Part shown: positions 10,469 through 18,025 of the stretch, piece by piece
How the letters are laid out: every line of letters starts with the position of its first letter
How positions within the stretch are numbered: the stretch's first letter is position 1
Source of the DNA: a virus
IMG/VR virus record: IMGVR_UViG_3300044825_001260
Span: 1-21,254 of that record
Direction: 5' to 3' (one strand)
Length of the DNA: 21,254 bases
Made by a program: the position numbers and the translations under genes
Notes under the pieces: generated by a model
What the model saw: the letters and a program-made list of their open reading frames with translations, nothing else
Told to the model about the DNA's origin: nothing
Databases searched by the model: none

Positions 10469-10612
10469 TGCTATAATAGTATTACACCAATAATAATTGA
10501 CTAATGTGTAGGATTCGATGAGACTTGCTCGGGATGGACGGCGAGGCTGCGCAAAGGTTTTAGAGTATTCAGTCAAAAAAACCCGCCGGATTAGGGCGGG
10601 CTGGATTTATTT
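10469..10612 (+). ncRNA. candidate plus-strand structured RNA or packaging-site region
   Basis: No gene fits between terS and the helicase. On the plus strand an extended -10 (TGCTATAAT, 10469-10477) precedes a segment closed by TTGACT-AATGT (10497-10507) pairing with GTATT-c-AGTCAA (10565-10576, one bulged C). Inside is a GC-rich stretch at about 10516-10556, unusual for this AT-rich spacer. The hairpin CCCGCC/GGCGGG follows, then TTTATTTG. No good -35 box is seen. It may be a small RNA. Alternatively, lying beside terS, it may be a cos/pac recognition region. The evidence is moderate to weak. Confidence 0.3.
10575..10600 (-). terminator. intrinsic terminator of helicase operon
   Basis: The minus strand reads CCCGCC, a 7-base loop, GGCGGG and seven T. 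It lies a few bases after the helicase stop. Confidence 0.88.
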
Positions 10613-13600
10613 GTTATAATATTCTTCGCGACCTTTTTCTGTTTTTTCGATCCAATCTTTATATCTGGGGTCAGATTCGTCAATATTATAATTCCAAGGT
10701 TTTTTTCCTCTTCTTAAAAATGCTGCACTACAGTAAGCCTTCATTTTAATTTCTTTAGCAAGATCTTGGATCATATTAAATTCCTTGTTAGACAAAGCAC
10801 CATAAAAATCACTTTTAATAAATCTAGTTCTTATAGTATGGCCTGAAACATTATAGATTGATATTCCTTGTTCTTCTAACATAGGAATAATCATTTCACT
10901 CCATTCTATTAAATTATTGGCATCTTTAGCAGTTTTAATTAAGAGGTCATACACAACTCGATGTCTTTTCTTCCAAAATGATTTTTTTGCATACCATTTT
11001 TTTGTTATAGAACTTGTAATAGGCCAAATTTGATGAGGAGGATATCCAAACATTTCGACTAATTGTGATGTTATTGAATTATAATTGTTATCAGGAGCAA
11101 ATTGTTTTGAAACTTGTTCTTCAGCAACTACTGCCATAATTTCAAAAATATCATCTCTATGTTTTTTAAGTTTTTCTTTAAACAATTTAAATTCAATAAG
11201 ATTCTGTGTAATTTGATCTTTAGTTTCCTGAGAAAAACTATTAGTTCCTTTCAACACATAATCGCCGGCCCAAAATTTTTCTCTAAACATTCTAGGGTTA
11301 GTCTTATACAAGGTATAATACTCAAATAGGGGTTTAAATTTTTCAATTTGCAAAAACTCTTGATTTATTGGCGGTGTGGTTTTAGGCGTTATATCGGGCA
11401 ACGACAGATATTTTTCCAACAGCCAAGTGTGCGCTTCAACAACAATATTATCAATCAATTGACCTTTGCTTTTGTGCGAAATCCATGTAATCAATTTAGA
11501 AAAATAGATAGGGTCGAATTCTTCGGGGATCCAAATTCTATTATTCGGACCACGAATTTGTTTGGTTCGACTTCCATTAGGATTTTGAACAAGACTTTGG
11601 AACTCGTCAAAAATGTTTTTATTGCATTGAAGAATTCCAAGCAGTTGTTCTAGCCTATCCTCGCTGAATGAGGGTTTGTCATCAACATCGTTGAATCTCA
11701 TAGGAAGAATATAATATGCGTTGGGGTCTCCGCATACAGGTTTCTTAGTTTTGGGATCAATATCCAGTCGAGTAACTCGCCAAATTTCTTGAGTGGCATT
11801 TACAATAGTTTTGTAATCAAAGTGAATGGCCGCATGATGTTTTGGGCTATACTTATCATCATACCCTCGACCAAATACCTTGCAACTACCAATGGCATAT
11901 CGATCGTGCGTTTTTGCTCGTTTAATAGCAAGGGTATGATTCTTAATTGATGCCGAATTATAATCATCATCATTAAGCACTTGCCAAAAAAGTTTCTTGA
12001 CACTTTTTTCAATGTTTGTATTGCCAAGAACCTTTTTACAAATCCAAGGCCAATTCATTTCTGCCAATTTATTGGTTTTAACCTGATGACTAAATGTAAG
12101 CAGTCTCTTAACTTCGGGGTATTCAACCAAAGTTTTTGCCAATGCTACAAGATCTGCAATCAGACCGGCATGCGGATAGGTATTATCAACAGGAACACCT
12201 TGCACACGCATATTCCAATCTACACGACCTTTAGCATCCACAAATTCCGGGAACATTTGTGCCACTTCGCTTTCCTTAACGCAGGGCATGATTAGAATCA
12301 AAGGTTTTACCAATCCGGCGTTCTCGGCCTGAGCCCAAGTAAAATTATGAGCACAAACACCGTGAATATTGATATTATTCAGACCGTAATCAACAATAGG
12401 ATCTTTGCCCAACCGTTCGGTTCCGGAACTTCCAAAGGTGATAACACTTTCCGTTCTATCATCCAGAGCAGGAGCAAAAGAAGAATGTGCATTGCTGCAA
12501 GGCCAATCGCATTCGTCTCGCTTACGATACCAAAACTTGAATCCTGGATAGTATCGATCCAATTGCCTTTTAATCTGTTCAATTTGAGTGGCATGGTGAT
12601 ACAATGTCAACAGTAGGACACTTTTATCTCCATCCAATGCTTGTTTAATTCTGACCACTGCTTCGGAAACTGAAGTGGTTTTAAAGAAAGGGCTGGAGAG
12701 ATTATTATCGTTTTCGCCATCAATTACCGAGGTGCCACTTACCACAATAACTTCATCATAGAGACCTTTGGCTCTACGACGCATAACTTCTTCCCAACCA
12801 TTTTTGGGCAGAGTTTTGCTGCTGTGATAAAAACTTACGCTAACAGGGCGCGGAGTTTTAGTATAGACTGGATTAAACAAATATTCTAGTTCAGCCAGAA
12901 TAATTGGATCCAAAACACTTTTACCTAGAGCACCTGCTCCAAGTTGATGCCATTTTGGTTGGCCGTGAATTTGAAATGCTTTTTTACCAAACGTGGTGCC
13001 GGCATTGACGTAACCATCCTGTTCGGGACCTCGAGAAACAAATCCAAAAATCTTAGTAGTTGGTTTATCTTTTCTCTTAGCGCGAATGTTATTCCAAAAT
13101 GTTTTGTCGCGAGCAATTTCTTCGACATTATTTTCGTCGGCAACAAATTTGTCATAACCAAAAGTTAGAGGGGTTTGATCTTTCCAAAGGCGAGCATAGT
13201 GAGAAAGATCCTGCGCGGTAGTGTTAATGACAAAATTTCGGATATTCTTTAGAGGGTTATTGCGCAGGCTCATCATCTTAGCAGCCTTATCTGTGCCCAA
13301 CTTTTTATCCATGTGTAGAGTGCTCTTATCCTGATGGATATCAATTTTACCATCAATTCGAGTCACACAAATTTTGTCAATGCCAAAAGAGTTGGCACCT
13401 TTTTGCAAAAGTTCCCAACCATCAATTTTGTCAATAATATGCGAAGGAATAGAATGAACATTGTTGGCATTATAAACCGCAACATAGTCATTATATTCCA
13501 AATGCCATTCTCTAGTAAATTCTTCAAAAAGGTCGCCGGCTTCGCGAGTTTTATTACCATCGTTCGCGGCCAGAAGTTGAGCAATATAATCAAAAAATGA

Positions 13601-13633
13601 TTTTGTGGTCTTAAATGATTGAAGTGTCTTCAT
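10607..13633 (-). CDS. restriction-endonuclease-fold/SF2 helicase fusion
   Basis: This is a protein of about 1008 aa. Residues 30-105 resemble the Mrr-like nuclease of type ISP/type III-related enzymes: GDLFEE at 33-38, GIDK at 84-87 and QDK (QxK) at 101-103, a PD-(D/E)xK pattern. A divergent SF2 helicase follows: Walker A GAGALGKS (232-239), DECD box (373-376), SSGTER in place of SAT/TATPR (402-407), LLTFSH motif IV (511-516), FGRGYDD motif V (587-593) and QEIWRVTR motif VI (615-622, Gly replaced by Trp but both Arg kept). About 360 residues of unrecognised C-terminus follow. There is no methylase domain. I chose the ATG at 13633 because GGAG lies six bases before it and it follows the upstream stop by one base. 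The frame is open to 13654. It could serve replication, recombination, host DNA degradation or phage competition. Confidence 0.78.
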   Translation of the reverse strand: MKTLQSFKTTKSFFDYIAQLLAANDGNKTREAGDLFEEFTREWHLEYNDYVAVYNANNVHSIPSHIIDKIDGWELLQKGANSFGIDKICVTRIDGKIDIHQDKSTLHMDKKLGTDKAAKMMSLRNNPLKNIRNFVINTTAQDLSHYARLWKDQTPLTFGYDKFVADENNVEEIARDKTFWNNIRAKRKDKPTTKIFGFVSRGPEQDGYVNAGTTFGKKAFQIHGQPKWHQLGAGALGKSVLDPIILAELEYLFNPVYTKTPRPVSVSFYHSSKTLPKNGWEEVMRRRAKGLYDEVIVVSGTSVIDGENDNNLSSPFFKTTSVSEAVVRIKQALDGDKSVLLLTLYHHATQIEQIKRQLDRYYPGFKFWYRKRDECDWPCSNAHSSFAPALDDRTESVITFGSSGTERLGKDPIVDYGLNNINIHGVCAHNFTWAQAENAGLVKPLILIMPCVKESEVAQMFPEFVDAKGRVDWNMRVQGVPVDNTYPHAGLIADLVALAKTLVEYPEVKRLLTFSHQVKTNKLAEMNWPWICKKVLGNTNIEKSVKKLFWQVLNDDDYNSASIKNHTLAIKRAKTHDRYAIGSCKVFGRGYDDKYSPKHHAAIHFDYKTIVNATQEIWRVTRLDIDPKTKKPVCGDPNAYYILPMRFNDVDDKPSFSEDRLEQLLGILQCNKNIFDEFQSLVQNPNGSRTKQIRGPNNRIWIPEEFDPIYFSKLITWISHKSKGQLIDNIVVEAHTWLLEKYLSLPDITPKTTPPINQEFLQIEKFKPLFEYYTLYKTNPRMFREKFWAGDYVLKGTNSFSQETKDQITQNLIEFKLFKEKLKKHRDDIFEIMAVVAEEQVSKQFAPDNNYNSITSQLVEMFGYPPHQIWPITSSITKKWYAKKSFWKKRHRVVYDLLIKTAKDANNLIEWSEMIIPMLEEQGISIYNVSGHTIRTRFIKSDFYGALSNKEFNMIQDLAKEIKMKAYCSAAFLRRGKKPWNYNIDESDPRYKDWIEKTEKGREEYYNK

Positions 13634-13634
13634 T

Positions 13635-13886
13635 TTATTCTCCATCTTCCTCATCCATTAGATCTCTGGCGATTTCACACCAATCAAAAACTTCATTGAC
13701 CAAATTTTTTTCACTCCAACCTCTCATATGCAATTGCACAATACAATTGGTCATCAGACTCAAAATTAATGATTCTTTTCTCTCATCATTTTCATCCAAT
13801 TCAGGATATTCTTTCAAAATCTTAAAAAAGATTTCATTACCTTCTTCGATTCCAACTTCGATCAAATTATCAATTTTTTTGTCCAT
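13635..13886 (-). CDS. acidic 83-aa protein, helicase partner candidate
   Basis: The protein begins MDKKIDNLIEVGIEEGNEIF and ends DLMDEEDGE, and is strongly acidic and helical. The middle contains CIVQLHMRGWSEKNLVNEVF, which looks like a conserved helical motif, though I cannot assign a family. It is the first gene behind an extended -10 promoter and is translationally coupled to the nuclease-helicase, one base separating stop and next start. The ribosome binding site is GAGG six bases before ATG. An inhibitor, loader or DNA mimic for the helicase is possible from charge and linkage only. Confidence 0.8.
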   Translation of the reverse strand: MDKKIDNLIEVGIEEGNEIFFKILKEYPELDENDERKESLILSLMTNCIVQLHMRGWSEKNLVNEVFDWCEIARDLMDEEDGE

Positions 13887-14027: not shown

Positions 14028-14219
14028 CTATTTCTTGACAAATACCACAAGTTGGGTTCTATTACGCAAACCATATTTGCGGAGAATATTTCCCATATGC
14101 AGTTTGATTGTGCTTTCACTTACATTCAACAATCTTGCCAAATGTTTGTTTGAGCACACTCTTGTCAAAAAGAGATCAAGAACTTCTTGTTCCCTTGGCG
14201 TTAGTCTAACATTATCCAT
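14028..14219 (-). CDS. single-domain LuxR-type HTH regulator
   Basis: This 63-aa protein is almost exactly one LuxR/GerE DNA-binding domain: LTPREQEVLDLFLTRVCSNK, ARLLNVSESTIKLHMGNILRKYGLRNRTQL. The conserved Glu (REQEVL), the recognition helix around SESTIKLHMGNIL and the fourth helix are present. There is no receiver or ligand-binding domain, so it resembles GerE-like stand-alone regulators. It would bind DNA as a dimer. It has its own sigma70-like promoter and terminator. The site AAAGGA lies in a small hairpin (GGTTC/GAACC, 14224-14240), which may limit translation. Targets are unknown. Confidence 0.93.
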   Translation of the reverse strand: MDNVRLTPREQEVLDLFLTRVCSNKHLARLLNVSESTIKLHMGNILRKYGLRNRTQLVVFVKK

Positions 14220-15915: not shown

Positions 15916-16299
15916 TTAAACAAACAAGTTATTAAATGTGGAATTGCGAGCCCAACCATCATAATACAATTGTCCTTTGGCGGCTGCATCACATATGGCC
16001 ATTACTTCTCGACCTGTTCTTGTATCACTGAGATATAGTGCGTTTTTGTGATTAACTCCGGGAGCTAATTTTCTACAATGTAGGATTTGATCCTTGAGCC
16101 ATTTGAAAGTATTAATTCCTGGATGATTTAATTTCCACTCATTGTCTTTGATCTGTTCTAGTAAACTGGGCAAAAACATAGTCTCAAATGTCGTCCATGA
16201 ACTGGGCTTCAAATATTGGCTTTTGTAATTTACTATATCCTCTGTGATGTCAATTATCTTATTGAGGTGTTCTGGTCTCAACTTAATCTTACTAGGCAT
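15916..16299 (-). CDS. hypothetical protein, first gene of accessory operon
   Basis: This 127-aa protein begins MPSKIKLRPEHLNKIIDITE, has FETMFLPSLLEQIKDNEWKL and NTFKWLKDQILHCRKLAPGV in the middle, and ends TRTGREVMAICDAAAKGQLY followed by an aromatic tail. It is mainly helical. No family is recognised. ATG 16299 is preceded by AAAGGAG at eight bases, whereas the earlier in-frame ATG at 16326 has no such site. Five tightly spaced genes follow in the same transcript. A weak CATAAATAAT element lies just upstream. Confidence 0.7.
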   Translation of the reverse strand: MPSKIKLRPEHLNKIIDITEDIVNYKSQYLKPSSWTTFETMFLPSLLEQIKDNEWKLNHPGINTFKWLKDQILHCRKLAPGVNHKNALYLSDTRTGREVMAICDAAAKGQLYYDGWARNSTFNNLFV

Positions 16300-16392
16300 G
16301 TCATAATCTCCTTTTACCTTAGTCATATGTATTATTTATGTGATTTAGATAAAAGGGGTATAAAATAGGGGTCTTTTTGTTCAGTCTTTAAG

Positions 16393-16444: not shown

Positions 16445-16591
16445 TTTTTTTCAAAGTCATTTAACTAAAAAAACAGATCCTATGTAAAGCATTTAGATGT
16501 AAAAGGTTTGACCCTGAGCCACAAGGCACCCATCTAAGTGGATGCCCAAAAAATTTGACCCCTCGCACTGGATCGGCAGTTGGATATTTGG

Positions 16592-16792
16592 CTACGAGTG
16601 CTTGTTAAAGCCACCAAATATTATTTTATTGACCGTGTCCTCCTGTTCTGGGCTCTGTGCCATACCCAACCAACCACGATTTTTAATGATTACTTTCAGG
16701 TGCCAAATGTAATCAATGACAGGATTGTTACTAAACGCTATGCATTTGTAAAACACGGATTTATTAAGATAGTCTAAATTGCTATCAACCAT
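16592..16792 (-). CDS. doubtful 66-aa ORF
   Basis: The ORF encodes MVDSNLDYLNKSVFYKCIAF, then NPVIDYIWHLKVIIKNRGWL and an end FGGFNKHS. Composition is compatible with coding, but no ribosome binding site precedes the ATG, the stop lies in the loop of an 8-bp hairpin, and the opposite strand is also open here. I keep it as a weak candidate within a segment that may be RNA. Confidence 0.3.
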   Translation of the reverse strand: MVDSNLDYLNKSVFYKCIAFSNNPVIDYIWHLKVIIKNRGWLGMAQSPEQEDTVNKIIFGGFNKHS

Positions 16793-16979
16793 TTACGATT
16801 AGAGAAAGCAGTGGCATACCCCGTATGTTTGCTTTAAGGCATCTCCTTTGCGTAGGAGGTAGTCTCTAAAAGCTGGACTATGGCGATCCAATTTGGCTAC
16901 CGTCACACATCAGAACGGATTTACCAGCAGTATTACAATCGGCCTGCCAACCTTGAAACCACATAAATTTTAACATTAG

Positions 16980-16987
16980 TATTTATA
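16980..16987 (-). promoter_or_regulatory. T4-late-like promoter TATAAATA
   Basis: The minus strand reads GTATAAATACTAATG, sharing TATAAATACTA with the element before the scaffold gene. It lies 41 bases after the ncRNA terminator tract and would transcribe the hairpin-rich stretch and perhaps the accessory operon. Confidence 0.5.
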
Positions 16988-17028: not shown

Positions 17029-17058
17029 AAAAAAAAGCCCCGAGGGGTATTCGGGGCT
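17029..17058 (-). terminator. intrinsic terminator of the ncRNA
   Basis: AGCCCCGA/TCGGGGCT (8 bp), 7-base loop and eight T on the minus strand. Confidence 0.92.
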
Positions 17059-17256
17059 TGAGCAGGGCATTGCACCCCACTGTGGAGACTCCAAGAAATG
17101 TCGGTAGCTGGAGTCAAATTCTTTGATTGCTTTGTATGGACACACCACTGCTTCTACAAGGTTCATCAATCAAAGAACTGTGTTGCTTACGCTTTTTGGG
17201 AAATAGTTGTTAAAATTGGCATCAAGGTAAAAAAAGAATCTGCGTAAGCAACACAT
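17029..17256 (-). ncRNA. novel structured RNA, about 225 nt
   Basis: Three consecutive perfect inverted repeats and a terminator fill this segment. Stem P1 has 14 bp (17242-17255 with 17179-17192, 49-base loop). Stem P2 has 11 bp (17167-17177 with 17119-17129), continued inside by TACAA/TTGTA. Stem P3 has 7 bp, GACTCCA/TGGAGTC (17087-17093 with 17109-17115). P1 and P2 are separated by one base, so they could stack. A promoter lies exactly upstream and the intrinsic terminator closes the unit. No ORF of note is inside. I recognise no known RNA family such as tmRNA, 6S or tRNA. Confidence 0.72.
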
Positions 17257-17257
17257 T

Positions 17258-17286
17258 ATTATTTATTATTTAGAATAAAAAGTCAA
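17258..17286 (-). promoter_or_regulatory. sigma70-type promoter of the ncRNA
   Basis: TTGACT (-35, 17281-17286), 17-base spacer, AATAAT (-10, 17258-17263). The predicted start near 17251-17255 coincides with the first stem. The -35 box includes the TGA stop of the zinc-ribbon gene. Confidence 0.68.
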
Positions 17287-17465
17287 GTCTTTTTGGTTAA
17301 AATTCTCCACTTTTGATCACAATTTTCGCAGGTCTTTGTCCAATTATCCCAACGACTTTTACTAAACACTACAACCCTGTTTACGACTTCTTTTTGGCAA
17401 TCACCACAAGTTTTTGCAGCTGGTTTGACCTGTTCCAATCTTTGTTTGAATTCGGCGTGTTCCAT
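17283..17465 (-). CDS. small zinc-ribbon protein
   Basis: This 60-aa protein carries two CxxC knuckles, TCGDCQKEV and TCENCDQKW, separated by about 24 residues, a likely single zinc ribbon. The N-terminus is a charged helix (MEHAEFKQRLEQVKPAAK). Such proteins bind nucleic acid or partner proteins, and no closer family is recognised. The site GAGG lies six bases before ATG and the gene follows the coiled-coil gene by 10 bases. Its stop codon is part of the ncRNA promoter. Confidence 0.75.
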   Translation of the reverse strand: MEHAEFKQRLEQVKPAAKTCGDCQKEVVNRVVVFSKSRWDNWTKTCENCDQKWRILTKKT

Positions 17466-17475
17466 TGAGACCTCA

Positions 17476-17703
17476 TTAGTGTTTAGTCAATATAACAGCG
17501 ATAGCACCGATAACACTGACCACAATAGTTCCGGCGGTTCCCACCATGACTTTGAAGAAATCAAGGCGGAATTTGTTAATATTTTTCTCTAAACCATCTA
17601 ATTTCGTCTCTAATTTATCAAGTCTTTCTTCCACGTGTTTATAGCGTTCTTGGCAGAGACTGACATGAGTTGGTAGGCTTTCGCTTTCAATATCAGTGCT
17701 CAT
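17476..17703 (-). CDS. coiled-coil membrane protein, XhlA/holin-accessory-like
   Basis: This 75-aa protein has an N-terminal charged coiled coil (RYKHVEERLDKLETKLDGLE) and one C-terminal membrane helix (GTAGTIVVSVIGAIAVIL) followed by a short basic end. This layout matches haemolysin XhlA-type proteins that assist phage lysis from the membrane. The frame is open to 17793, but that part overlaps the preceding gene. ATG 17703 has AGAGGAT upstream and lies four bases after the preceding stop. No endolysin is visible in this window, so a lysis role stays inferred. Confidence 0.65.
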   Translation of the reverse strand: MSTDIESESLPTHVSLCQERYKHVEERLDKLETKLDGLEKNINKFRLDFFKVMVGTAGTIVVSVIGAIAVILTKH

Positions 17704-17707
17704 AATT

Positions 17708-18025
17708 TTATCCTCTCTGATCAATCCAACCTTGTGCCAAGGCCTTGGCCTGTGCTCTAAATGCTTGATAATCAGCATAGGCCTGACCACCATTGTTAAT
17801 CAGAGCAAATTCTTGATCGATGCTGTAAATGCTTCGAATGATTTTGCTGACTAATTCACTATAGGAATCATTTTTGCCCGCCAGGGCCTCATTTTGTATC
17901 CATGAGGTTCGTCCTGGCACGGGGATGTGTGATTCAAATGGAACTTCTTGAGCATTCCAATGTATTCTTAATTCTTGGCCACTGACTTGATAATCAGGAA
18001 GTCGTTGACTACTGGTAACTTTCAT
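17708..18025 (-). CDS. hypothetical protein next to tail fibre
   Basis: This 105-aa protein begins MKVTSSQRLPDYQVSGQELR, contains IIRSIYSIDQEFALINNGGQ and ends YADYQAFRAQAKALAQGWID. The C-terminal part resembles the helical end of small fibre-associated proteins often found directly after long tail fibre genes, sometimes acting as fibre chaperones or tip attachments. It lies 14 bases after the fibre gene. No definite family is recognised, and the assignment is by context. Confidence 0.6.
   Translation of the reverse strand: MKVTSSQRLPDYQVSGQELRIHWNAQEVPFESHIPVPGRTSWIQNEALAGKNDSYSELVSKIIRSIYSIDQEFALINNGGQAYADYQAFRAQAKALAQGWIDQRG

Follow-up and report, generated by a model that had tools for sequence, protein, structure and literature searches.

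We asked whether the gap behind the fibre genes of a viral genome encodes an autonomous structured RNA, as an initial annotation had proposed, and what such an RNA might do. The window (the whole stretch of DNA that was analysed) is the 21,254-base IMG/VR virus record IMGVR_UViG_3300044825_001260, which is probably a fragment. The genes flanking the RNA run on the minus strand, and the unit reads from 17286 to 17029. Its parts and surroundings are listed here in reading order.

17476 to 17793, minus strand: gene for an XhlA-like small membrane protein, upstream by its position relative to the RNA
17283 to 17465, minus strand: small zinc-ribbon-like gene directly upstream of the RNA; its homologues precede the RNA in relatives
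17258 to 17286, minus strand: sigma70-like promoter TTGACT-17-AATAAT (TTGACT at 17286-17281, AATAAT at 17263-17258), a possible second, overlapping promoter
17260 to 17266, minus strand: T4-late-type promoter box ATAAATA with predicted +1 at 17254; in relatives the box is followed by P1 after 3-5 nt
17029 to 17254, minus strand: predicted transcript of the small RNA (sRNA), with P1 at +1 and the terminator at the 3' end
17242 to 17255, minus strand: 5' arm of P1, TGTGTTGCTTACGC, in a 14-bp perfect inverted repeat
17193 to 17241, minus strand: P1 loop, 49 nt and mostly unpaired, with the antisense segment 17228-17208 inside
17179 to 17192, minus strand: 3' arm of P1, GCGTAAGCAACACA, in the same 14-bp perfect inverted repeat
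17118 to 17178, minus strand: P2 hairpin of 11-12 bp (arms 17178-17167 and 17129-17118)
17087 to 17115, minus strand: P3 hairpin of 7 bp (arms 17115-17109 and 17093-17087)
17061 to 17081, minus strand: P4 hairpin with a GCAAU loop, seen in the fold and absent from the initial annotation
17035 to 17059, minus strand: intrinsic terminator stem-loop (inverted repeat), then a T run and GGC
16980 to 16986, minus strand: second T4-late-type box, 49 nt past the terminator, the predicted start of the target transcript
16950 to 16975, minus strand: leader segment complementary to the P1 loop (17228-17208), from complementarity tests and duplex energy
16562 to 16968, minus strand: conserved noncoding stretch in the target transcript, a putative distant relative of Polynucleobacter-1 RNA, with a 19-nt core at 16918-16900
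15916 to 16326, minus strand: conserved downstream gene, which served as query for further loci

The perfect inverted repeats of 14, 11 and 7 bp described initially were found on the minus strand (17255-17242/17192-17179; 17177-17167/17129-17119; 17115-17109/17093-17087), with a single base between P1 and P2 as had been claimed, and the terminator stem (17059-17035) with its T run is present as well. The start had been placed at the first stem, and this agrees with the predicted +1 at 17254, from which P1 is formed starting at the first base. Folding of 17255-17029 gave -73.1 kcal/mol compared to -50 ± 4.25 kcal/mol for 200 dinucleotide shuffles (z = -5.4), none of which was as good, and both P1 at the predicted +1 and P2 were better than all 300 shuffles (p = 0.0033 each, which is the floor). 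A coding role of the RNA was rejected, as the only frame has 48 codons and occurs in the window copy. An Rfam scan, also proposed in the initial annotation, assigned the RNA to no family at the gathering threshold, and the weaker matches cover mostly the terminator.

Related loci were collected with the terminase large subunit as a query, by which about 180 relatives were fetched and 80 kept. The order of XhlA-like/zinc-ribbon genes, gap, accessory gene and shared downstream genes recurs in L125, L127, L131, L132, L136, L144, L145, L147 and others, and most such gaps hold a unit of matching architecture. Further loci (L203, L204, L289, L305 and L312) were added by searches with the XhlA-like protein, the 15916-16326 protein and the conserved terminator tail. 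In total the unit was found at the equivalent position in about thirty related viral genomes: 3' of the zinc-ribbon gene, right behind an NTAAATA box and usually about 50 nt ahead of a second box, the distance from terminator to next box being 49-53 nt in 11 loci. An out-of-sample locus, L315, was the sole result when bacterial genomes were scanned once for the 15916-16326 protein family; its source is a metagenome bin with the name Legionella. The zinc-ribbon gene with a box at its stop, P1, an adjacent P2 and a GCAA-loop terminator are all present in L315, and its second box lies 42 nt past the terminator. Ten further loci fetched through the downstream 19-nt core carry the box, P1 and terminator. 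Nucleotide searches with the RNA in phage records gave chance matches only, an exact search of viral contigs with the P1 arm gave 14-mers attributable to chance, all without the second arm, and two neighbouring proteins used as sole queries found no relatives.

The stems are kept in these loci with different sequences. P1 from +1 was significant against dinucleotide shuffles in 18 of 20 loci (Fisher 3e-22) and the adjacent P2, which is also present in L203, L204, L136, L145, L289, L305 and L315, in about half of the loci (Fisher 1e-6). The P1 sequence is different yet complementary in nearly every locus, with several pair types at each position, and GCAA loops were found again in the 3' hairpin or terminator of relatives. 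P1 covaries across loci, as the initial annotation had asked of the stems; because complementarity was also the criterion by which P1 was located, the pair counts are partly circular, and the fixed offset between box and P1 and the shuffle test are the stronger arguments. Stem sequences and loop lengths are too variable across loci for a useful covariance model. There is good support for an autonomous structured non-coding RNA: P1 arms are 98% paired within a locus compared to 44% after swapping arms between loci, the unit is syntenic in relatives, and it comes with a promoter box and a terminator of its own. The RNA is very probably a real transcript.

The promoter assignment had to be revised. 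The sigma70-like promoter of the initial annotation, TTGACT-17-AATAAT, is indeed present in the window, but the conserved element is the NTAAATA box (17266-17260). Among 12 loci checked, all have the TAAATA box and four (window, L203, L204 and L131) a TTGAC-like -35. Promoters like TTGACT-17-AATAAT are by themselves within chance (22 sites in 7.3 kb compared to 16.8 ± 3.6 expected). The -35 in four of 12 loci appears to exceed chance expectation, and an overlapping early-type promoter is therefore possible. NTAAATA boxes are strongly strand-biased (11:0 in the window) and precede genes more often than randomly chosen positions do. The box and the zinc-ribbon stop codon overlap in several relatives. 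P1 starts 3-5 nt past TAAATA in all 12 distinct high-scoring loci with box, stem and terminator (25 offsets were allowed), while box offsets are flat for stems that no terminator follows. The T4 late promoter is TATAAATA with no -35, and its cyanophage counterpart is NATAAATA (PMC2984593, PMC2988020). The boxes described here resemble these promoters in their TATAAATA-like NTAAATA sequence, their place on the coding strand before genes and the lack of a -35 conserved across relatives. Unlike the T4 late promoter, they belong to small siphovirus-like genomes of about 30 kb, where no gp55-like sigma was seen. In the complete relative DSL-LC06, of which part of the proteins was scanned, neither the annotation nor the PHROG scan showed gp55, gp33 or gp45. 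The presence of T4-late-type promoters in such small genomes, with no T4-late factor seen, raises a testable question, namely whose polymerase reads them.

The P1 loops point to a function. Complementarity of each loop to the first 75 nt past the next box was scored through the reverse complement, with about 101 control leaders as reference; whole-region RNA duplex energies and a loose gapped score were too permissive to separate own from foreign leaders, and a tighter leader score was used. The own next leader beat the approximately 101 control leaders in eight of 15 core loci (L203, L204, L289, L145, L127, L305, L153 and L131), the window and L132 reached p = 0.039 each, and the match was not significant in the remaining five (L136, L125, L144, L198 and L230). 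The Fisher p for the 15 core loci is 1e-9; the test in this first set came after the pattern had been noticed in it, and the independent evidence is that of L315 and the second set only. In L315 the loops are complementary to the next leader with p = 0.008, and the second set, the ten loci obtained through the downstream core, gave a Fisher p of 0.007, which is weak, with six of the ten loci above p = 0.1. When the sense strand of the entire contig was compared with the P1 loop, the next leader scored best for the window, L145, L127 and L153. The loop-leader duplex of the window has an energy of -20.8 kcal/mol, reached by 1.2% of shuffles, and its leader match is modest (p = 0.012 to 0.04); GCCAA stands in place of GCCAT in this loop, and no start codon is evident close to the target leader. 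Loop-leader pairings contain bulges.

Composition of the loops gives a similar indication. GCCAT occurs in 13 of 28 P1 loops compared to 1.5 in shuffles, a count in which the loops of L312 and L371 were scored on the wrong strand, the correct strand carrying GCCAT. GCCAT followed by an anti-Shine-Dalgarno (anti-SD) sequence occurs in 8 of 28 loops compared to 0.3 in shuffles, whereas ATGGC and SD, the sense motifs, are about as frequent as in shuffles. GCCAT with anti-SD is the complement of SD...AUGGC, a common gene start in these phages.

Conserved place, box, stems and terminator, and complementarity in most core loci, were computed directly. From these we infer, with moderate confidence, a phage-encoded antisense sRNA predicted to be transcribed, to pair in the cell with neighbouring phage messages and to repress them. 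Among the functions listed initially (regulator, sponge, packaging or host-modulating RNA), loop complementarity thus favours a regulator that acts by antisense pairing on phage messages. The sRNA would be transcribed from its own T4-late-type promoter, perhaps also from the overlapping sigma70-like one, and would end at its own terminator. Its 5' end would be tied into P1, with P2 directly after it, and the stems would stabilise the RNA and hold out large single-stranded loops. These loops would be complementary to translation-initiation regions, in many members through an anti-start/anti-SD block (GCCAT...UCC/CUC), and in many members would match the leader of the transcript starting about 50 nt past the terminator. 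Pairing would block translation of the neighbouring transcript or destabilise it, and possibly act on other phage messages with SD...AUGGC. For the window, pairing is predicted with the 5' leader (16975-16950) of the transcript that holds the Polynucleobacter-1-like RNA.

The unit could instead be a stable transcript end with no function in trans, which ends the late operon, insulates the next promoter and protects RNA ends while its loops drift. It is always found at the end of the fibre/XhlA/zinc-ribbon block ahead of a new promoter, its stem sequences are not conserved, and a 5'-terminal stem is a known protection against decay. We nevertheless consider this unlikely, since a terminator alone would suffice and the unit has its own promoter box, and since the loops are enriched in GCCAT and anti-SD and match their own next leader far above controls. 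That the sRNA targets host messages through SD-complementary loops, as a regulator or a sponge, seems quite improbable: an anti-SD/anti-AUGGC loop could bind many bacterial messages, but the loops vary among relatives and in most core loci follow the neighbouring phage leader. Large perfect inverted repeats can form in DNA too; an origin or cruciform is nonetheless very improbable, as the polarity of box, P1 at +1 and terminator, and the fixed offset of the box, fit a transcript. A role in packaging or structure, as for the phi29 pRNA, would suit an RNA that is phage-encoded, structured and situated between the blocks of fibre and terminase genes, yet is scarcely plausible given that no Rfam match was found at gathering, that a motor part would need a conservation of sequence and loop length which is lacking here, and that these phages carry a terminase large subunit. 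In Rfam scans, bacteriophage pRNA models gave no match at gathering or with E up to 10.

The antisense reading has a natural and an engineered precedent. The c4 RNA of P1/P7 is encoded just upstream of its target and in the same orientation, and the sRNA has the corresponding position and strand relative to its putative target. This c4 antisense RNA blocks translation by pairing around the target ribosome-binding site, with the complementary sequences in loops (PMC12197685). Similar loop complementarity around the ribosome-binding site is present in L145, L127, L131, L153 and L203, while the window leader has no evident start codon. In contrast to c4, the sRNA comes with a promoter box and a terminator of its own, and the target transcript begins at a second promoter; these separate boxes argue against c4-type processing from a transcript shared with the target. 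Also unlike c4, its large loops are closed by long variable stems and the target differs between phages. Paired-termini antisense RNA is an engineered design (Nakashima 2006; used in PMC3694883), in which, as here, a stretch antisense to a start region is enclosed by a long stabilising terminal inverted repeat; the sRNA differs in being natural, in having a second hairpin and a terminator, and in carrying a different stem in nearly every locus. Most probably the RNA works like c4 RNA with a paired-termini layout and would act as a repressor, yet it is not a member of the Rfam C4 family, which gave no match at gathering or among matches with E up to 10, and none in eight relatives. Betaproteobacteria toxic small RNA (RF02278) was also rejected, as it scored 25.4 bits compared to a gathering threshold of 50 and matched only the 3' end with the terminator.

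The RNA thus belongs to an undescribed family of a known general kind. More tentatively, and short of an even chance in our estimate, this may be a widespread family of late-expressed phage antisense RNAs, in small phages with promoters as if read by a T4-like late transcription system. Its architecture (T4-late-type box, 5'-terminal paired-termini stem, second stem, terminator and a second box about 50 nt on) would be constant, and its loops would be rewritten to fit whichever leader follows, making it a re-programmable natural repressor slot. To our knowledge, only a small number of phage antisense RNAs have been described, very few of them in aquatic phages that have not been cultivated. 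The design is simple and testable, has the layout that engineers chose for stable antisense RNAs, and seems to be re-used in nature with new target loops.

Downstream of the RNA, the loci differ. In L125 and L203 the next gene encodes a small protein, and in L131, L144, L145, L153 and L315 another protein of about 350 amino acids (L131 4454-5545, L144 3701-4759, L145 1131-2183, L153 2182-3225 and L315 2699-3772). This family has the motifs DYDIE..APTL and HDG and no Pfam or PHROG function where scanned. Its model resembles family-A DNA polymerases, with T7 DNA polymerase as the best match (Foldseek probability 1.0, E = 0.0012, pLDDT 73); the resemblance is to the palm, and the protein is unusually small. 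In the window, L204, L289 and L312 a conserved noncoding stretch follows the sRNA. At least 119 viral stretches, some from contigs of T4-like size, contain an exact copy of its 19-nt core, CCGTTCTGATGTGTGACGG (window 16900-16918), and several of these match Rfam Polynucleobacter-1 RNA (RF01718). The RF01718 model did not match the window copy in the Rfam scan. Judged from the CCGTTCTGATGTGTGACGG core shared with RF01718-matching loci, window 16562-16968 (minus strand) appears to be a distant, unannotated relative of Polynucleobacter-1 RNA, which is the neighbour of the sRNA and not the sRNA itself. The stems TGATTAC/GTAATCA, GAAGTAG/CTACTTC and GTAGTC/GACTAC in this stretch vary between the window, L312 and L204 with pairing kept. 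Another conserved noncoding stretch, 79% identical between L125 2200-2440 and L136 4079-4321 and belonging to no Rfam family, lies between the accessory and 15916-type genes.

Elsewhere in the window, 14028-14219 (minus strand) encodes a 63-amino-acid LuxR/GerE-type DNA-binding protein in the phage accessory region. A 1015-amino-acid protein (10607-13654, minus strand) has no Pfam or PHROG match and was otherwise seen only in the near-identical contig L121; it is perhaps a helicase-like or restriction-like accessory gene. In L314 (OR003941, DSL-LC06, 29.8 kb circular), NTAAATA boxes precede genes, and a PHROG scan of ten hypothetical proteins showed neither a replication gene nor a late-sigma gene. 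Satellite-like dependence on a T4-like helper phage is a candidate explanation for both observations. This genome also has a P1-like stem at 1634-1725, placed at +1 of a TAAATA box and followed by no terminator; the stem forms part of the leader of the gene at 1732 and could be a cis-acting variant.
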